Source: Paenirhizobium naphthalenivorans
GTDB lineage: Bacteria; Pseudomonadota; Alphaproteobacteria; Rhizobiales; Rhizobiaceae
Assembly: GCF_007992095.1 (NCBI RefSeq)
Contig: NZ_BJZP01000003.1
Span: 248,001 to 312,000, forward strand
Direction of reading: 5' to 3'
DNA: 64,000 bases
Shown in pieces: positions 5,905 through 14,847 of this stretch. Each line of letters starts with the position of its first letter. Position 1 is the stretch's first letter. Both the position numbers and the translations under genes were made by a program. The notes under the pieces were generated by a model. That model did not search any database and had not been told where the DNA came from. It saw only the letters and a program-made list of their open reading frames with translations.

Positions 5905-6070
5905 CTTTCGAACAGACGACAACCGCACGTTCCATTTACCACGCACTCACCTTTTTACCTTTCGGCGTGGACTTTCTCGCATTGGCCACTAAAAAAGTGG
6001 TGGCTTTTCAGAACAACTGATATATTTGTAAAACATAACATACTTTCTCTCCTCAAGTTTGAACCCACAA

Positions 6071-6793
6071 ATGATAATCGCGGAACGTCAATCGCAACTG
6101 AGCGGTGAAATAGCGACTAGCCAGACGCGCACTCAGTTTATGGCCATCATGGCGCGTGTCATCTGCGAGTTCGGCCTTGACCACCTGACGATCATGCAGG
6201 CGCCGGGACCGAACGACATGGCGATCGCGCCGCTTGTGCTGGAAAGTACCCTGCCTGGACAATTCGCCCGCGAGTTCGACAAGAACCATTTCCTGCGCTA
6301 TTGCCCGATCCTGCCTAAGTTCAACAATTCGGTTCTGCCGCAAAGCTGGTCGCTCGATGGCGAAGGCCCCTCGCCAAACTTCGACTGCCCGGAAAAAATG
6401 TACGAACTGATGCAGCGCTACGGTCTGCTGATGGGACTGATCTTCCCGGTAACCTCGATCGACGCGAGCCGTTATTTCCTGCGTTATGATGGCAAACGCT
6501 CGCCGTTGCATCAGGCCGAGTTGAATGAGCTGGGCATGATTTCGCTCCACGCCTTCGATGTGTTCGACCGCATGCGCAGGGCTGAAACGACGGCACCGAA
6601 CCTGCTTTCGGCCCGCGAACTGGAAGTGCTGCGCTGGACGGCACAAGGCAAGACATCGATCGAGATCGGGCAGATCCTGTCCCTCTCCGATCACACGATC
6701 AACGCCTATATGACCAATGCGATTAAAAAGCTCGATTGTGTGAACAGGACCCAGTTGGTAGCCAAGGCAATCAGGCTCAAGTTGATCAACTGA
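6071..6793 (+). CDS. LuxR family transcriptional regulator with autoinducer-type sensor domain
   Basis: A 240 aa protein. The N-terminal part (about residues 15-155) resembles an autoinducer-binding fold and the C-terminal part (about 172-235) is a LuxR helix-turn-helix, starting LSARELEVLRWTAQGK and containing the recognition helix region SDHTINAYMTNAIKKL. No synthase gene (luxI) is intact nearby, so it is a LuxR solo in this window. The start is uncertain: TTG 6059 is in frame 12 bp upstream, and neither site has a good Shine-Dalgarno. Some rhizobial proteins of this type control motility or exopolysaccharide genes; the target here is unknown. Confidence 0.85.
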   Translation: MIIAERQSQLSGEIATSQTRTQFMAIMARVICEFGLDHLTIMQAPGPNDMAIAPLVLESTLPGQFAREFDKNHFLRYCPILPKFNNSVLPQSWSLDGEGPSPNFDCPEKMYELMQRYGLLMGLIFPVTSIDASRYFLRYDGKRSPLHQAELNELGMISLHAFDVFDRMRRAETTAPNLLSARELEVLRWTAQGKTSIEIGQILSLSDHTINAYMTNAIKKLDCVNRTQLVAKAIRLKLIN

Positions 6794-7212: not shown

Positions 7213-8322
7213 TCAGCGGTCGAGCACGGAGCGCAGTTCGACCATGTTGGAGCGCACCCTGAGAATGTAGAAGCCCATAGTCGCCAGATGCGTCGGCATG
7301 ATCCAGCCGTCCTCGGCTCCGTTGGAGATGATCGCCGGCTGAATTCTGAGCGCCGCCTGCAACTGCTTATCCATCTCGGTCCAGATGGCGGTCAGGTTGC
7401 GTTCGCGGATGACATCGACGAAATCGGCCCTTGCCGCTTCCAGCACCGCATATTGCGCGTAGAGCTGGCCATAGGCGAACCAGAAGCGGTCATCGGCACG
7501 CGTATCGAACCAGCCGGCATTATACTCTTCCGAACGGCGGCGCAGAATGTCAGACGTATTGCCCAGGTCGCTCGCCATGCGGTCGAGGAGTTGCACGAGA
7601 TTGTCGGCACGCGCGTCGAACACCGAGCCGCAGGTTTCCAGCGACGCGTTGAACCGGCGCCAGCTGTCGACGGCCGACCGGTAGTACTTCGGGGTCGGCG
7701 TCTTGAAGCCGAGCGGATCGGTGCCGAAATACCAGGTCCCCTCGTCGAACTGGATATTGCCGCGCGCATCCTGCAGATCATTGTTCATGCCGGACGTGCC
7801 GCGCACGCGGCCGAGATTGTCGGCAAGCTCGATCGCCAAGCGCCGCGCGACCTGGTTAACGCCCCGTTGGAACGAAGCCTTATTGTCGAAGAACGGGGTA
7901 TGGTCCCAGTCCACGCCGAACAGTCCCAGCTTGTATATCAGCGACGAGGAGATCCAGACGTTCTGGTTGACATTCATATCGGTGAGATCGGCGACCACGG
8001 TGACGATCGCCGAATTCTGGCAGGTGCCCGGCTTGTCGGCATTCTCCTGTCCGGCAGCAACCTGACGGGTCGAGAATTTATAGGCCTGCACGAATTCCGG
8101 ATCGAAACCGTACCAGACCTGGGTGCGCCAGACGAACTGCCCGTAGAAACCGATCACCACCAGAACGAACAGCAGGACCGGGATCTTGATCAGCCAGTTG
8201 CGCCGCTGATACCAGCTGTGCGCGGCTAGAAATGGCCAGAAAATGGCCGCCACCACCAGACCGATGCCGCGTCCGACGGCAGCGAAGACGCGCTGGAAGA
8301 ACGCGATGATCGGATCAAGCAT
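7213..8322 (-). CDS. DUF2333 family membrane protein
   Basis: A 369 aa protein of the DUF2333 family, function unknown. The N-terminus has hydrophobic stretches at about residues 15-35 (IGLVVAAIFWPFLAA) and 45-65 (IKIPVLLFVLVVIGFYGQF). The rest is a soluble domain, probably periplasmic, containing WYGFDPEF and WISSSLIYKLGLFGVDW. Its ATG overlaps the stop of the upstream 432 aa gene by 8 nt, so it is translationally coupled as the last gene of the six-gene cluster. It probably anchors or reports across the inner membrane for that system; this is inference from topology and context. Confidence 0.88.
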   Translation of the reverse strand: MLDPIIAFFQRVFAAVGRGIGLVVAAIFWPFLAAHSWYQRRNWLIKIPVLLFVLVVIGFYGQFVWRTQVWYGFDPEFVQAYKFSTRQVAAGQENADKPGTCQNSAIVTVVADLTDMNVNQNVWISSSLIYKLGLFGVDWDHTPFFDNKASFQRGVNQVARRLAIELADNLGRVRGTSGMNNDLQDARGNIQFDEGTWYFGTDPLGFKTPTPKYYRSAVDSWRRFNASLETCGSVFDARADNLVQLLDRMASDLGNTSDILRRRSEEYNAGWFDTRADDRFWFAYGQLYAQYAVLEAARADFVDVIRERNLTAIWTEMDKQLQAALRIQPAIISNGAEDGWIMPTHLATMGFYILRVRSNMVELRSVLDR

Positions 8323-9613
8323 TGTCGTCTTCTCCTATGCCGTAGAGGCGTTTGCGGAATCCCGCCTTGTCTTGCAGATAGGTCCGCGACAGGCGGGATG
8401 CAACATATTCCCGAAAGCCATCGCTAAACCCTTCGTAGGCTTCATAAAAGCCCTGCTTGTCAAAAATGAAACGCGACACGAAGTCCATGGGCGTCATCTG
8501 CGCGATCAGTCGGTTGGTGAGCCACTGGTCGCGATGGTCGGGCCGCGCCCTGATCAGCAGGAAACGCCGGGCCGGCTCGACCTCCTCGATGCGAATGCTG
8601 CCGGAGACGCCGATCGCCCGGATCATCTCCTGCAGGAACGGGTAGGTCCCCTCGCCCGCAACACGATCAGCATTGCGGTGGATGAAAGTCTGCAACCACA
8701 CCGGCTCCACCTTGGAGAAGTCCATGGTCGGATCGCTCGCATAGGCGAGCGCAACGACCGCCATTTCGGCACGATGGGCGTAGAGCCCCGAGCCCTCCAC
8801 CCAGCTGGCGCGAGGAAGCTCGACCCGTCCGGTCTTGGTCAGAAAATCGAAGATCTGTGCCGGGTCCTTGATCGAGATATAGCTGACCTGCCACGGCCGC
8901 GAGCGGCGGAAGCCAGGCGCGGACGGATCGCAGATCACCGTGGTGATCTTGTCGTCGACGAACACATAGGTGCCGCCGAAGTGATTGGCCCAGAAAGCAT
9001 CGTGGCGGAACACCAGCTTGTCCGGCACCAGCACGTTCTGGCGGATGTCGCCAGTCAGGGTGGCCAGCTCCACCATGCGATTGAGCAGCGCGTCGTCACG
9101 CCAGGCATCGGGCTCGCTCTGCAACCGGTCGGACAGCCGGCGAAGCTCCGCGGCCTTGCCCAGCAGATCCTCGGCCGAGAGCACCTTGAACTGCACGGCA
9201 TTGATCGACAGCAGGTCCTCGAGGCTTTCGACCGTTGCCACCGAATCCTCGATCTCTCCGTAAAGCGCATCCTTGATGGTTACGGCATTGATCGCCCGCG
9301 CATTCGCGGTGAAGAACTCGTGCATCAGGCCGGCGGTATTGGAGAAACTCGTATGCACCACCGGCAGGCTCTCCTGCTCCGGCGTCAGGATGATGAAACG
9401 CCGGTTCACCCGGTTCGGATCGAGATAGTCCTTGTCGCCCAATTCGGCGGCGACCTGCGGTGAAAAGCCGGTCATATCGATGTCGAATTCGGAGAGCGCC
9501 GTCGGCCTCAGTCCGAACCCGGCCAGCGCCTTGTTGTAGCGCGCGATCAGATGCGGCTCGGTGACGGCGAGCAGCCGGCCATAGATCAGTTCGGCTTCAA
9601 GAAGACGGTTCAT
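8315..9613 (-). CDS. Conserved protein of unknown function (432 aa), likely DUF6638-type
   Basis: I recall this family only as an uncharacterised domain travelling with AAA ATPase and DUF2333 genes, so the DUF number is tentative. No membrane segment, signal peptide or catalytic motif is evident. The sequence is a mixed alpha/beta soluble protein with recognisable blocks ELIYGRLLAVTEPHLIARYN near the start, WANHFGGTYVFVDDK, and FRKRLYGIGEDD at the C-terminus. The start ATG 9613 overlaps the ATPase stop as ATGA and the stop overlaps the DUF2333 start, so it is produced in step with both. It could be an adaptor or substrate of the ATPase. Confidence 0.8.
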   Translation of the reverse strand: MNRLLEAELIYGRLLAVTEPHLIARYNKALAGFGLRPTALSEFDIDMTGFSPQVAAELGDKDYLDPNRVNRRFIILTPEQESLPVVHTSFSNTAGLMHEFFTANARAINAVTIKDALYGEIEDSVATVESLEDLLSINAVQFKVLSAEDLLGKAAELRRLSDRLQSEPDAWRDDALLNRMVELATLTGDIRQNVLVPDKLVFRHDAFWANHFGGTYVFVDDKITTVICDPSAPGFRRSRPWQVSYISIKDPAQIFDFLTKTGRVELPRASWVEGSGLYAHRAEMAVVALAYASDPTMDFSKVEPVWLQTFIHRNADRVAGEGTYPFLQEMIRAIGVSGSIRIEEVEPARRFLLIRARPDHRDQWLTNRLIAQMTPMDFVSRFIFDKQGFYEAYEGFSDGFREYVASRLSRTYLQDKAGFRKRLYGIGEDDNA

Positions 9614-11532
9614 GCCTGCCACCTGCCCTCCCGCTTCATCGCCTCGATCTCGCCGATCGCCCGCTCGCGCTGTCTCTCGCGCCGGATGATCTCGGTGACA
9701 GCCGCCTCGTCCGACTTGTCGGCATAGCGGAATTCGCTGTCGGCATAACGGTTGATCTCCTGCAGGATCATCTCCATCGTGACCGGCCCGCGCAGCTCGG
9801 CGATCATCGCCTTCTTCTCGTCGTAGCCCTTGTGCATGAAGGCCTCGGGTGTGACAAACCAGTCGTCGGGCAGTTCGACGTCCATCGCCCGCATCTTCAC
9901 CGCATCGGTGATGTTCTTGATCGCCCGGCCGGTGAAGCGCGGCTCGGCCAGCTTGATCTCGTGCAGATAGGCGCCGACGTCGGCGAGCGTCTCGATCTTG
10001 CCGCGCGCCCTCTCGAACCGCTCCCAAACCGCGACCAATCCGTCCTCCTCAGGGCGGCCGTGCTTTTCATAGGAGGTCGAGACCGCGCGCTTGATCTGCT
10101 GATTGGCAAACAGCTGATGCTGACCGAGCGGGATCGAATGGTTCTTGCCGATCAACAGCGCAAAGATGTCGATATAGTCCTCTTCCGTCTGCGGCCCGTC
10201 GATCAGCCAGCGCCCGCCGGCGCGCTGCCTCAGCGCGTCATCGACATTCTCCGGATAGTTGGAGAACATGCCGAAGGTGCAATTGCCGCGCACCACGGTG
10301 GACGCCCCGGCGAAAGCCTCCATCAGCACCGCCGTCACCTCGTGCTGGCCGGCCGACGCCCGGTCGTCCGACCGCTTCGCCGCCACCTGATCGACGTCGT
10401 CGATCGTGCCGAAGCCGATCACCCGCGGATTGACGACATTGTCGACGAAGGCCTTGGCGTTCTGCCCCGACTTGCCCTGATAGGACGAGATCTGGTCGAC
10501 ACCGAAATTCTCGTAGTGAAAGGCATACCCGGCGATCTGGCAGTAGTCGTTGAGCAGGCCGGCGATCATCTGGATCAGGATGGTCTTGCCGGTGCCCGGC
10601 ATACCGTCGCCGATGAAGGTGAACATGAAGCCGCCGAGCTCGACGAAAGGGTTCATCTGCCGGTCGAAGTCGTAGGCCATCAGCATCTTGGCGAGCTTCA
10701 TCGCCTGGAACTTGGCGATGTGATTGCCGATGATCTCTTCCGGTTTCTTGAAGGTCATCGACAGCGGCTTACGCCTTGCGCCGGGCGCCACATCGAAACC
10801 GTCGAGGGTGAAATCATCCTGATCGATGCGGATATGGGTGTTCTCGAACGATGAAAGCCCGGTGAACCGCGCCTTGCGGGTCAAAAGCCCGTCGATCGCC
10901 GCGCGGGCAAAGGCGCGCGTCCGCTGGCTGAGCGTCGCGTCGTCGGCAGCGCCTTTCAGCGCCGCATCGAGGCCCGCCACCATGCTCTTCAACGCATCCT
11001 GCGGCGTATCGAACAGAAAGTCCGGCTCGGGCGTATCGTTAACCGGCTCACCCTCTCCCGCAAGCGTCGAGAGGAGATAGGCGGCCAGCGAAAAAGCGGC
11101 GACATAGGCCGAGGTCGACAGAAGCGTCTTGAAGCGGCTCGCCTCCTCGCCCTGCAGGGGAGCCGCGACATTGCGGGCCTGCAATTGCTCGAGGTCGGTC
11201 TGCCGGCCGAACACCTCGCCCACCGCCAGCGCCACCTGGATGCCGCGCCGCACCCGGTAAAGCACCGTGTGCTGGGTCGGTGTCAGCAGCGGATCGCCGC
11301 TACCCGAAGACTGGATGGTCCGGGCCAGCTCCACCTCGCGGGTGCGCCGCACGCCGCCGGTCGAAACCGTCGGAACGAAGCGCCGCCCGGTGCCGGCAAG
11401 CGTCGTGCCGGCCGTCCCCTCGCCGGGATCGAGCGCCACGAACCGCGTCACCAGCGCCTGCGCCACCGCCAGATGCCGGGCGATCTCGTCCTCGCGAAGG
11501 GTGGTCAGCCCAGCATTCAATCCGTTACCCAT
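9610..11532 (-). CDS. AAA family ATPase of the SPFH-linked cluster
   Basis: A 640 aa ATPase. The N-terminal 260 residues are family-specific, with one hydrophobic segment (about 142-158, YVAAFSLAAYLLSTLAG) that could touch or cross the membrane. The AAA core follows, with Walker A GDGMPGTGKT (about 308-317), a Walker B-like IGFGTIDDVD (about 372-381) and a likely arginine finger in ALRQRAG. The shape is that of a remodelling ATPase rather than a transporter or protease (no HExxH motif). GAGGTC precedes the ATG. It is 3 bp after the 390 aa gene and overlaps the next gene by ATGA. Confidence 0.88.
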   Translation of the reverse strand: MGNGLNAGLTTLREDEIARHLAVAQALVTRFVALDPGEGTAGTTLAGTGRRFVPTVSTGGVRRTREVELARTIQSSGSGDPLLTPTQHTVLYRVRRGIQVALAVGEVFGRQTDLEQLQARNVAAPLQGEEASRFKTLLSTSAYVAAFSLAAYLLSTLAGEGEPVNDTPEPDFLFDTPQDALKSMVAGLDAALKGAADDATLSQRTRAFARAAIDGLLTRKARFTGLSSFENTHIRIDQDDFTLDGFDVAPGARRKPLSMTFKKPEEIIGNHIAKFQAMKLAKMLMAYDFDRQMNPFVELGGFMFTFIGDGMPGTGKTILIQMIAGLLNDYCQIAGYAFHYENFGVDQISSYQGKSGQNAKAFVDNVVNPRVIGFGTIDDVDQVAAKRSDDRASAGQHEVTAVLMEAFAGASTVVRGNCTFGMFSNYPENVDDALRQRAGGRWLIDGPQTEEDYIDIFALLIGKNHSIPLGQHQLFANQQIKRAVSTSYEKHGRPEEDGLVAVWERFERARGKIETLADVGAYLHEIKLAEPRFTGRAIKNITDAVKMRAMDVELPDDWFVTPEAFMHKGYDEKKAMIAELRGPVTMEMILQEINRYADSEFRYADKSDEAAVTEIIRRERQRERAIGEIEAMKREGRWQA

Positions 11533-11535
11533 GCG

Positions 11536-12708
11536 CTAGACCTCGCTGACGACATTATTGCCGGAAATGACGTGGACCTTGTAGTCGCCGAAGATCGCAT
11601 TGGCCTCGCCCGAGGCATAGAGCGCCTGATAGGCGTCATGCGGCACCAGCGCATGCTTCTCATAAGCCGAAACGCCCATGCGCGCGGCCTCGAGATCATT
11701 GGTATCAATGTGGAATTCCTGGCTCGCCGGGGTCGAAGAAAAGAAACCCTTCTGCGCCGGGCGCTCGGTCTTGGAAAACACCTCCTGCATGGTCCAGGTC
11801 AAGAGCCAGGCATTCTCGCTCTTGCGCACCCGCGACAGGATCTCGTTGATCCGCGCATTGTTCTCGGTGATGCCGGCCGAATAGAACGGCCCGAGCACGA
11901 TCCGTCGGAGCTGTTTTGGATGCAGGGTCGGAAAATCCTTGTCCATATTGGTGGCGATCGTCGCCGGTGTGAGTGCATAGGCGCCATTCTTGCCGGCAAA
12001 ATCGTCGAACTGGGCGGCGAGCTGCGGATTGAGCAAGCCTCCGACCGGCAGAGGAATATCGACATCCGGATTGAGCCTGCCGTCCTTGCCGACCAGAAGG
12101 CCGCGCACATTGTCGGAGGAATCCTCAATGCCGGCGATATAGATCATCGGCAACGTATTCGTCCCGTCGAAGACCGCCCAGGTCACGACATAATGCGGCC
12201 GCCCGGACTTTTCGCTCACCGTGACATGCACCGTCTCCGGCAGGACATAGGGCGAGAAGATGTCGCCCTTGCCGATCTGCTCGAGGTAGATCCGCTCAGC
12301 CATTTGCGACTGAAGGGCGGAAGGGAACGCCTTGTGCCGCAAGATGAAGTCGACCATTTCCGAGCGCATCGCCTTGGCGTCGGGCAGGTTGGCGAGCCGC
12401 TTTTCGGCGCTCAGCCGATCGTTCTCCAGCTCCAATACGTTCTGATAGACCGGAAAGCCGCTCTCGGCACGGGAGATGCGGAAATGCTCGGTGAAGCCGA
12501 TGCGGTTTTCCCAGCAGGCGAACGAGTTTTTCAGCCGCGCCAGATAGGGCAGCAGCAACGGACCAGCGAAACCGCTGCCCGGCAACGCCAGATCGGGGTT
12601 GGATAGATAGGTCTCCATCCCGCCGAGCGCGGCGCGGATGGAGTTGAAATACTGTGCAACGGGGGCGCCGTTCTGCTCAAGCATCGCCTGGGTTCTTCCA
12701 ATCTTCAT
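11536..12708 (-). CDS. Conserved hypothetical protein (390 aa) of the SPFH/AAA cluster
   Basis: I do not recognise the family. The protein looks soluble, without signal peptide or membrane segments. The first 130 residues are probably helical (IRAALGGMETYL, LELENDRLSAEKRL), followed by a beta-rich middle (VHVTVSEKSGRPHYVVTWAVF) and a C-terminal block with FGDYKVHVISGNNVVSEV. It lies 21 bp downstream of the SPFH gene and 3 bp upstream of the ATPase gene, which implies one mRNA and probably one complex. The Shine-Dalgarno is weak: GAGGG lies rather far upstream of ATG 12708. Confidence 0.8.
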   Translation of the reverse strand: MKIGRTQAMLEQNGAPVAQYFNSIRAALGGMETYLSNPDLALPGSGFAGPLLLPYLARLKNSFACWENRIGFTEHFRISRAESGFPVYQNVLELENDRLSAEKRLANLPDAKAMRSEMVDFILRHKAFPSALQSQMAERIYLEQIGKGDIFSPYVLPETVHVTVSEKSGRPHYVVTWAVFDGTNTLPMIYIAGIEDSSDNVRGLLVGKDGRLNPDVDIPLPVGGLLNPQLAAQFDDFAGKNGAYALTPATIATNMDKDFPTLHPKQLRRIVLGPFYSAGITENNARINEILSRVRKSENAWLLTWTMQEVFSKTERPAQKGFFSSTPASQEFHIDTNDLEAARMGVSAYEKHALVPHDAYQALYASGEANAIFGDYKVHVISGNNVVSEV

Positions 12709-12729
12709 CGTCGGTGCATCGCCGCACCC

Positions 12730-13635
12730 TCACTTCATACCGATGAAAGGCACGGCCGCTCCGGGGATCATCGTCGTCGGCAACTGGCCATTCCAGCGTT
12801 CCGCCGCCGTCAACTCGATCAGCGAGGGATTGTCGCGCAAGGCGGCGCCCTTGGCCCGGATGGCATCGGCTTCAGCTTCACCGGCAAGCCGTGTCGCTGT
12901 CGCCTGAGCTTCGGCCTGGGCGCGCACGGCGTCTGCCTGAGCATTGGCCTGGGTAACGGTGATCTCGGCCTGCACTTTCTCACGCTCGGCGTTCTGGCGC
13001 AGCTTCTGCACCTCGACTTCGGCCAGCATGCGGTTCTCGATCGACTGCTCGTAGACATCGGAAAAATCGATATTCTCGATCTGCACGCTGTCGATCAGCA
13101 CCGGCCCCTTGACGGCATCACGGATGGCCGCCTCGGTCTCGGCATTGAGTCGTCCGCGCTCCTGAATCGCCGTCACTGCATTGAACCGACCGAAGACATT
13201 CTTCGCCTGCTCGAACACGCGACGGTCGATCAGTCGCTCGACCAACCCCGCCTCGCTGCCGTAATTGGCATAGATGCGCTCGACCTCACCGGCCGGCAAG
13301 CGGTAGTTGACGGAAAGCTTGATCACCGCGGCCTGCTGGTCGCGCGAATAGGCCATGACATCGGCATAGATCTGCGCCCGGCTCTGCACGCTGATCTTCA
13401 CCACGCGGTCAAGGAAGGGAATCTTGAAACCCAAGCCGGGCTCCGCGGTGCCGACGATGGCTCCCGTTCTCAGGATGACGCCGCGTTCACCCTCGTCGAT
13501 CGTGTAGAAGGATTTAAGTCCGACGACGAAGGCGAAGAAAGCAAGCGCCGAATAAAGCGCGACCTTGCCGAGCCGCCCGGCTGCACCCATAGTACCCTCG
13601 CCGCCGGTTGCGGCACCCGAAAGAAATTTGGCCAT
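12730..13635 (-). CDS. SPFH / prohibitin family membrane scaffold protein
   Basis: A 301 aa protein with one N-terminal membrane anchor (about residues 25-45, VALYSALAFFAFVVGL), a band-7/SPFH domain (about 48-205, with GERGVILRTG and the prohibitin-like LIDRRVFEQAKNVFGRFNAV), and an Ala/Glu-rich coiled coil (about 210-270). Prohibitins form large ring or cage assemblies on the membrane, classically around AAA proteases. Here the AAA partner encoded two genes on has no protease domain. GGGGGA lies before the ATG. The family is secure; the partnership is inferred from the operon. Confidence 0.93.
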   Translation of the reverse strand: MAKFLSGAATGGEGTMGAAGRLGKVALYSALAFFAFVVGLKSFYTIDEGERGVILRTGAIVGTAEPGLGFKIPFLDRVVKISVQSRAQIYADVMAYSRDQQAAVIKLSVNYRLPAGEVERIYANYGSEAGLVERLIDRRVFEQAKNVFGRFNAVTAIQERGRLNAETEAAIRDAVKGPVLIDSVQIENIDFSDVYEQSIENRMLAEVEVQKLRQNAEREKVQAEITVTQANAQADAVRAQAEAQATATRLAGEAEADAIRAKGAALRDNPSLIELTAAERWNGQLPTTMIPGAAVPFIGMK

Positions 13636-13758
13636 ACAGTCCCCCGATAGAATTCGATGAAACGCTTGGGATCGGCAGAAGCAACGTGCGTTTCGCGAGG
13701 CGTGCCGGACGACGCCAGAAAGGTCGCCGTCCCGGCATCAAGTGCCCGAACGGACGCG

Positions 13759-14847
13759 TCACGACTTCACGTAATTGGCCGAATTATGCTTGTCGAGCAC
13801 CGTCTGGAAACGCCGGGCAAAGGCCTCGTCTGCAAGCTTCTTGCGGCGCTGGATGTCCTGGGTGGACAGCATGTTCTTCTCGTGCAGCTCCAGCAGATCG
13901 CCGATGTGGCGCTGCGCGGCGGCGCCGACGCCGGCCATGGTTTCCTCGGCAGCGGTATCGACCTGACTACCAAGCGTGTTGATCCTGTGCGCCACCTCCT
14001 GTTGGGCGGCCGTCTTCAGCGAGTCTTCCAGCGCCTTGTAGAGCACGATGCGCTGCTCGGTATCGATCGTCAGCTTGTTGATCAGCGTGTTCTGCGCGGC
14101 GATCTGGTTGTTGAGACTGTCGACGAAGGTCTGGAACATCGAGGTATAGCGTTCCAGCGTCTGGCTTTCGGCCAGAAGTTCCTGCTCCTTGGCCTGCGCC
14201 TGGTTGTATTCGGTTGCCAGCTTCGAGCGTTCGCCCTCGAGTTGGGTGCGGGCCGACTGATCGGTCGACGCGGCGATCCCGTTCTCGATGTCGAGCAGCA
14301 TCGGATTGAGCTCTTCAATGCGCTTCTGCGTCGTTTCCAGCGTCGCGATCGTCATTTTGCGCCGCTCGATCACCTGGATCAGGCTCGCCTCGGAGCTGCT
14401 GTAGCGCTGGTCCAGCACGGTGCGCTGGTCCTTGAGAATGCCGACGATGCTGTCGGACTTGGCCAGCAATTCCTGCAGATTGCCAGCAAGCGACATATTG
14501 CGCACCCGATCGGTGCGCATGCGCTGCGCCTTCTGTTTGGAGAAAATGCCGATGAATTTCTCGTAGCCGGTATAGCTCTTCATGCTCTCGAACTCGGCGC
14601 CGAACACATTGGTCGCATCCTCGAGCCCGATGATCAGATCGGCGATATTCGCCTCCATCACCTTCTGTTGCTTGATGACGTCCTCGATGCGGGCGTTCTC
14701 GATGTCGAAATTGACGTCGCCGAGCTTCGTGTCAGCCTTAGCGAACTGGTCGAGCACGACGCTAGACTGCTCCATCTTGCCCCTGACCTCGCTGACGATG
14801 GTACGGGTCTTTTCGATTTCGCTGTCGAAGGACTGAAGCGAGGCCAT
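13759..14847 (-). CDS. Coiled-coil protein, possibly TelA-like, first gene of the SPFH/AAA cluster
   Basis: A 362 aa, almost entirely helical, Gln/Glu/Lys-rich protein with no membrane segment. The pattern of long amphipathic helices, a short turn at GIFSKQKAQRM and a C-terminal run of alternating Gln/Asn/Leu helices ending in AFARRFQTVLDKHN recalls the toxic-anion-resistance TelA/KlaA proteins, but this is only a distant visual resemblance. The frame is open to 14898; ATG 14847 is chosen because GGGAGACG precedes it. It is 123 bp before the SPFH gene, the largest gap in the cluster, so a second promoter there is possible. Confidence 0.78.
   Translation of the reverse strand: MASLQSFDSEIEKTRTIVSEVRGKMEQSSVVLDQFAKADTKLGDVNFDIENARIEDVIKQQKVMEANIADLIIGLEDATNVFGAEFESMKSYTGYEKFIGIFSKQKAQRMRTDRVRNMSLAGNLQELLAKSDSIVGILKDQRTVLDQRYSSSEASLIQVIERRKMTIATLETTQKRIEELNPMLLDIENGIAASTDQSARTQLEGERSKLATEYNQAQAKEQELLAESQTLERYTSMFQTFVDSLNNQIAAQNTLINKLTIDTEQRIVLYKALEDSLKTAAQQEVAHRINTLGSQVDTAAEETMAGVGAAAQRHIGDLLELHEKNMLSTQDIQRRKKLADEAFARRFQTVLDKHNSANYVKS

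Follow-up and report, generated by a model that had tools for sequence, protein, structure and literature searches.

A co-inherited four-gene core pairs a coiled-coil protein with an AAA ATPase in Rhizobiaceae, Rhodobacterales-type genomes and Vibrio

A window of 64,000 nucleotides from Paenirhizobium naphthalenivorans (assembly GCF_007992095.1, contig NZ_BJZP01000003.1, positions 248,001 to 312,000 of the forward strand) carries six co-directional genes, four of which form the core of a conserved AAA ATPase system. The four encode a coiled-coil protein (CC), a 390 aa protein (P390), an AAA ATPase (AAA) and a protein of the family DUF6638. It is close to certain that these genes are a unit, kept in fixed order and inherited together. 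The other two encode an SPFH/Band_7 protein and a DUF2333 membrane protein. We propose, at a probability of about one half, that the four core proteins make up one AAA machine in which AAA remodels CC through CC residues 276-315, probably at the inner membrane face. The initial annotation of the window could name no function for the gene combination, and we likewise found no papers on the cluster in the literature searched and no description of this conserved AAA system.

Distribution and order of the four-gene core

The occurrence of the core was assessed in 299 Pseudomonadota genomes searched with DUF6638 and with profiles of AAA, P390 and CC; few candidates were scored per genome and distant copies could be missed. 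P390, AAA and DUF6638 were each detected in 20 of the 299 genomes and the three lists were identical. These 20 core genomes carry four family labels (nine the window's family, nine f16, one f8 and one f41) and are not 20 independent cases. CC was detected in the same 20 genomes and in G043, G107, G253 and, weakly, G265. Gene order was read in two sets of loci. The first consisted of the window and 16 loci from the 19 other core genomes (17 loci), and the second, nearly all Rhizobiaceae, of the best 80 loci among at least 555 genome stretches in which CC was confirmed by a contig scan that may count one locus twice. One locus appeared under two labels (L109 is L033), giving 97 core loci of which 96 are distinct. 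CC relatives also made up 5,550 protein clusters, with the best-scoring in Rhizobiaceae and Rhodobacterales.

The order CC-P390-AAA-DUF6638 was found in 17/17 loci of the first set, P390 of L031 being found by profile search. In the second set 74 of the 80 loci read CC-P390-AAA-DUF6638-DUF2333, four had the same order with the SPFH gene between CC and P390, and the remaining two end at a contig edge within or after AAA. Across relatives the median P390-AAA gap was 3 bp and the median DUF6638-DUF2333 overlap was 8 bp. The close packing of the last four genes reported initially was confirmed in the window, where P390 and AAA are 3 bp apart, AAA and DUF6638 overlap by ATGA and DUF6638 and DUF2333 overlap by 8 nt. 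The AAA-DUF6638 overlap of the window is untypical, since only 29 of the 77 relatives measured have a gap of at most 30 bp here.

The core was also detected beyond these two sets of loci. Two of four Vibrio records, from V. parahaemolyticus and V. vulnificus megaplasmids, hold the four core genes together, with 38% (CC) and 42% (AAA) identity, and in the Vibrio record compared each of the four proteins matched its core profile with an E-value no higher than 1.4e-79. On the Vibrio megaplasmids L221 and L222 (0.88-0.93 Mb) the core adjoins an mfd gene. A diverged core lies on a Rhizobium leguminosarum plasmid (L224, 5506-11182), followed by a gene that presumably encodes an rpoD-like sigma factor. 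The complete set is present in S. meliloti; one record titled S. meliloti pSymB (L223, CP090106.1) has 3.7 Mb, which we take to be the size of the main chromosome, and may be mislabelled. The linkage is thus not local to one genus and spans Rhizobiaceae, Rhodobacterales-type genomes and Vibrio. The grouping of the four core genes is far from chance, which is not so for the SPFH gene.

For three of the four core families no described relative was detected. Pfam gave no match above cut-off for CC or P390 of the window, and NCBIfam likewise gave none for any of the six proteins (0/6). The 432 aa protein, listed initially as unknown, belongs to the Pfam family DUF6638, whose function is itself unknown. 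The structure models of P390 (predicted local distance difference test score, pLDDT, 90.6) and DUF6638 (pLDDT 87.9) each gave no Foldseek match at E<=0.001. A single-sequence protein search with the Vibrio P390 returned only 3 homologue clusters.

CC residues 276-315 and the AAA ATPase

Four genomes provide natural loss variants of the core. In G043, G107, G253 and G265 a diverged CC directly adjoins DUF2333, and genome-wide searches found P390, AAA and DUF6638 nowhere in these genomes. The flanks of all four loci are those of the window, with a LuxR gene at 48-55% identity, three transporter genes at 72-81% and a formate-tetrahydrofolate ligase gene at 82-84%, and a thymidine kinase gene lies next to CC as it does in S. 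meliloti. Window-type flanks together with the missing genes therefore indicate the same site from which the three middle genes are gone. Compared with the window, CC of the loss loci has 28-33% identity and DUF2333 64-66%, against 80-96% and 55-92% in 72 loci with the full set, which argues that it was CC and not DUF2333 that changed when the other three genes went. A CC that resembles the shortened form, at 31% identity, occurs in another R. leguminosarum record.

Column conservation was compared along CC, for which an alignment of 17 loci has a mean column identity of 62%. A larger set of 121 CC sequences, which includes 30 database proteins with unseen gene neighbours, has 120 columns conserved at >=95%, and 19 of the 120 fall in residues 276-315. 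The four CC proteins from loci lacking AAA keep 0-1 of these 19 and 34-45 of the 101 elsewhere (Fisher two-sided p 0.0007-0.0015). Two diverged CC proteins encoded with AAA were then compared with the segment limits fixed beforehand. The Vibrio CC keeps 17/19 columns in the segment and 62/101 elsewhere (p 0.018), and the CC of the R. leguminosarum plasmid keeps 19/19 and 77/101 (p 0.013). By its column conservation the segment appears to be constrained where P390, AAA and DUF6638 are present and not where they are absent, and it is the strongest mechanistic clue in the data.

The third core protein is an AAA family member, with PF00004 above cut-off, the motifs present in at least 95 of 97 sequences and DD instead of DE in Walker B. 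Walker A (GDGxPGTGKT) was found in 97/97 AAA sequences and the Walker B DD in 95/97, the other two not being matched by the pattern. The protein also has a sensor-1 Asn and probable Arg-finger residues, and F[TS]GR stands where sensor 2 is expected. Among proteins of solved structure the nearest matches are domains of classical AAA proteins (E 1e-4 and weaker), including an i-AAA ATPase domain at E 1e-4. The region N-terminal to the AAA domain matched no family in the Pfam scan. Because Walker B carries DD and not DE, turnover of the enzyme may be slow or switch-like. As a lead only, DD is also found in Walker B of the slow-turnover D2 ring of NSF.

The segment data fit binding of CC by any one of P390, AAA and DUF6638 and cannot tell which. 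A different division of labour is possible, if doubtful, in which AAA serves a single complex as its assembly chaperone or activase (like MoxR or CbbX), P390 and DUF6638 are the client or load the client, and CC is a scaffold and not the substrate.

Membrane partners, the SPFH gene and the insertion junction

All six minus-strand open reading frames (ORFs) of the window were verified as open and co-directional at the coordinates first assigned to them (Table 1). Hydropathy detected one hydrophobic window in the SPFH protein and two in DUF2333, as described initially, and further spans in the proteins DUF1523 and an 88-aa protein introduced below; none was detected in CC, P390, AAA or DUF6638. 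The possible membrane segment initially assigned to AAA was not borne out, its maximum Kyte-Doolittle 19-residue mean being only 1.51. A LuxR-type regulator gene (Autoind_bind + GerE, window 6059-6793) adjoins DUF2333 and was found in 20/80 loci.

Table 1. Features of the six-gene stretch, in window coordinates.
Feature	Position	Strand	Basis
CC, coiled-coil, 362 aa, core gene 1	13759..14847	-	conserved start 14847
CC residues 276-315, SLKTAxQQxVAHxIN..., proposed AAA-linked docking/remodelling segment	13903..14022	-	column conservation
SPFH/Band_7 protein, 301 aa, one hydrophobic span, optional accessory	12730..13635	-	Band_7 (PF01145) 7e-28
P390, 390 aa, soluble, without known family, core gene 2	11536..12708	-	Pfam, Foldseek
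AAA ATPase, 640 aa, core gene 3	9610..11532	-	PF00004 1e-10, above cut-off
AAA Walker A GDGMPGTGKT	10582..10611	-	pattern in 97 sequences
AAA Walker B GFGTIDDVDQ, with DD for the DE of most AAA	10387..10416	-	register from 5ubv alignment
AAA sensor-1 Asn and likely arginine fingers, GMFSNYPENVDDALRQRAGGR	10210..10272	-	motif comparison
DUF6638 protein, 432 aa, core gene 4	8315..9613	-	PF20343 6e-79, above cut-off
AAA/DUF6638 junction; insertion hotspot in relatives, empty in window	9610..9613	-	gap lengths in relatives
DUF2333 membrane protein, Rhizobiaceae partner of core	7213..8322	-	PF10095 6e-20, above cut-off
DUF2333 hydrophobic segments, residues 12-30 and 43-61	8140..8289	-	hydropathy

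The membrane protein next to the core differs by lineage, being DUF2333 in Rhizobiaceae and DUF1523 in the other core genomes. DUF2333 is the last gene of the set in 78/78 uncut loci of the second set. Its place is taken by DUF1523 (PF07509, E 7e-62 to 7e-68 in three proteins tested) in the other 11 of the 20 core genomes (11/11 by clustering), none of which (0/11) has a DUF2333 match at E<=0.001, and an 88-aa two-span protein accompanies DUF1523 in 8 of the 11 non-Rhizobiaceae core loci. DUF2333, initially included in the cluster, is thus not a universal part of it and is replaced in the 11 core genomes with DUF1523. Away from the core DUF2333 has varied neighbours, trpS included. In five of seven f30 gammaproteobacteria with DUF2333 (L214-L217, L175) pspA lies within about 2 kb of it on the same strand, a nearness that hints at an envelope role of DUF2333. 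As for the membrane remodelling proposed at first, a membrane protein does adjoin the core in most loci seen; the remodelling itself is something we infer.

The SPFH gene had been placed at the centre of the cluster, as a membrane cage that would organise the AAA enzyme and the other proteins. It lies inside the operon in the window and occupies the same CC/P390 junction in four loci of the second set (L043, L081, L083 and L092). However, it was found in 4/80 loci of the second set and in none of the 16 other loci of the first (5 of 96 distinct loci), and is missing from 91 of the 96. Mapped on a tree of 82 AAA rows, its occurrence takes 5 changes to explain, and shuffled labels take as many, so that it shows no clustering; repeated loss and repeated gain are both possible. 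The SPFH protein is an optional extra and not the system centre, and the cage, to which we give very little chance, is already largely refuted for the general system. PMC2636767 divides SPFH proteins among twelve subfamilies, three of which have conserved operons.

The junction between AAA and DUF6638 exceeds 300 bp in 40 of 78 loci (L042, L043, L045, L047, L049, L050, L051 and L059 among them). Its inserts, identified in part only, include a cluster of ParE-like toxin ORFs in 14 loci, with a helix-turn-helix (HTH) partner in those read (ParE_toxin 6e-8 and HTH_3 3e-11 in L042, the only locus so tested in Pfam), DUF559-like ORFs in at least seven distinct loci (L033 and L049 tested in Pfam), DUF3825 in L024, and an endonuclease gene with the insertion sequence ISRm16 in S. 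meliloti. We read the junction as an insertion-tolerant site and not as a machine part. Two loci (L114 and L115) have an insert of about 260 aa between P390 and AAA with the motif HPFNDGNGR, which we take to be that of a Fic protein.

This gathering of toxin-antitoxin, nuclease and other small modules raises the question of a defence or conflict system, as does the plasmid location of the core in R. leguminosarum and Vibrio. PADLOC also gave weak AAA matches to two proteins of defence systems, TRIP13 (E 7e-4) and IetA (E 0.003). However, these are generic AAA-domain scores, and the other core proteins had no defence-family match, the sole further PADLOC match being SPFH to REase_II (E 0.03). 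No PADLOC system matched the six-gene set, only these weak single matches (E 7e-4 to 0.03), and the AAA gene was found in no phage records. The choline/glycine-betaine-type ABC transporter flank is kept in 76/80 loci and in 4/4 loss loci, a pattern that resembles vertical inheritance at a single site rather than a shifting defence island. We therefore regard a defence role as quite unlikely.

The same flank, present in the window, in S. meliloti and in those 76 loci, would suit a housekeeping role as an accessory to the adjacent genes for choline uptake in osmotic stress. However, of the flanking genes tested only a permease was matched in one of the 11 non-Rhizobiaceae loci and nothing in the other 10, the Vibrio core differs as well, and the transporter is kept where the three middle genes are lost. 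We see scarcely any chance for such an accessory role.

Known systems and the proposed machine

The core resembles several known systems in part. The accessible part of PMC11237479 describes PspA with AAA and Band-7 partners, for which ESCRT-like roles are proposed, and there neither a DUF6638-type operon nor P390 nor DUF6638 is named. Like ESCRT-III/Vps4 and the bacterial PspA-AAA pairs (PMC11237479, same part), the core joins a coiled-coil protein to a classical AAA in operons that may hold a Band-7 gene.

A further likeness lies in a coiled-coil segment that tracks the ATPase, known for ESCRT-III and computed here for CC. Unlike Vps4, AAA has no N-terminal MIT domain detectable in Pfam at E<=1. 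Unlike PspA, CC reached an HHalign probability of 0.2% against 5 PspA, in a comparison of sequence profiles and not of folds for which a diverged-CC control gave 99.9%. TelA and CC are both soluble, comparable in size and built with long helices; the HHalign probability of CC with TelA (7 sequences that hang together as one family, L157 weakly) was 1.5%. Neither PspA/Snf7 nor TelA appeared at E<=1 in the Pfam matches of 17 CC members, among the 25 of 27 families listed.

As in HflKC-FtsH and other systems of SPFH with an AAA protease, SPFH and AAA are encoded together in the 5 distinct loci that have the SPFH gene. Unlike HflKC-FtsH, the SPFH protein is optional and the 640 aa AAA gave no M41 or other peptidase match in the Pfam scan, which agrees with the initial view of an AAA enzyme lacking a protease domain. 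The weak TRIP13 profile match, the sensor-1 Asn and the likely Arg fingers are shared with TRIP13/Pch2 and classical AAA proteins, from which AAA differs in its Walker B DD (95/97) and its own N-terminal region; HORMA matched 0/6 window proteins.

In the proposed machine AAA would form a ring and act on CC, which it would grip and remodel through residues 276-315. P390 and DUF6638 would be adaptors or regulators. The membrane proteins would tie the machine to the envelope, where their periplasmic domain could sense or be serviced.

Several points count against such a machine. With DD in its Walker B, AAA may hydrolyse ATP weakly. No membrane-binding helix is obvious in CC, and its sequence shows no detectable homology to PspA or TelA. 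A PspA profile match was found near the core, up to about 10 kb on each side, in only one of 96 distinct loci (L030 in G262, where a divergent TetR gene separates pspA at 7402-8115 from the core operon). The limits of the CC segment were drawn after the AAA-less profile matches had been seen to end at 274, the four AAA-less genomes are all Rhizobiaceae, related and not independent, and the segment could have been lost by one deletion in a decaying gene. The link to the envelope is indirect, because DUF2333 often occurs where the core does not (it is in 68 of the 299 genomes, and nine of these carry the core) and neither DUF2333 nor DUF1523 was seen next to the Vibrio core or the R. leguminosarum plasmid core.

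A bolder form of the AAA-CC machine, which we put forward only tentatively, is an ESCRT-like remodelling machine evolved from unrelated parts. Here CC would polymerise on membranes, a slow DD-type AAA ring would grip SLKTAxQQxVAHxIN, P390 and DUF6638 would be two adaptors of new fold, and DUF2333 or DUF1523 would serve as exchangeable periplasmic sensors. The grip segment would then be missing wherever the motor is, with only the filament protein and the sensor remaining.

If the AAA-CC machine is real, it would add a new pair of AAA and substrate for which a candidate docking segment is already mapped, two protein families that have no known fold or role, and natural loss variants. These would make the role of bacterial AAA/coiled-coil machines testable in easy genetic hosts.

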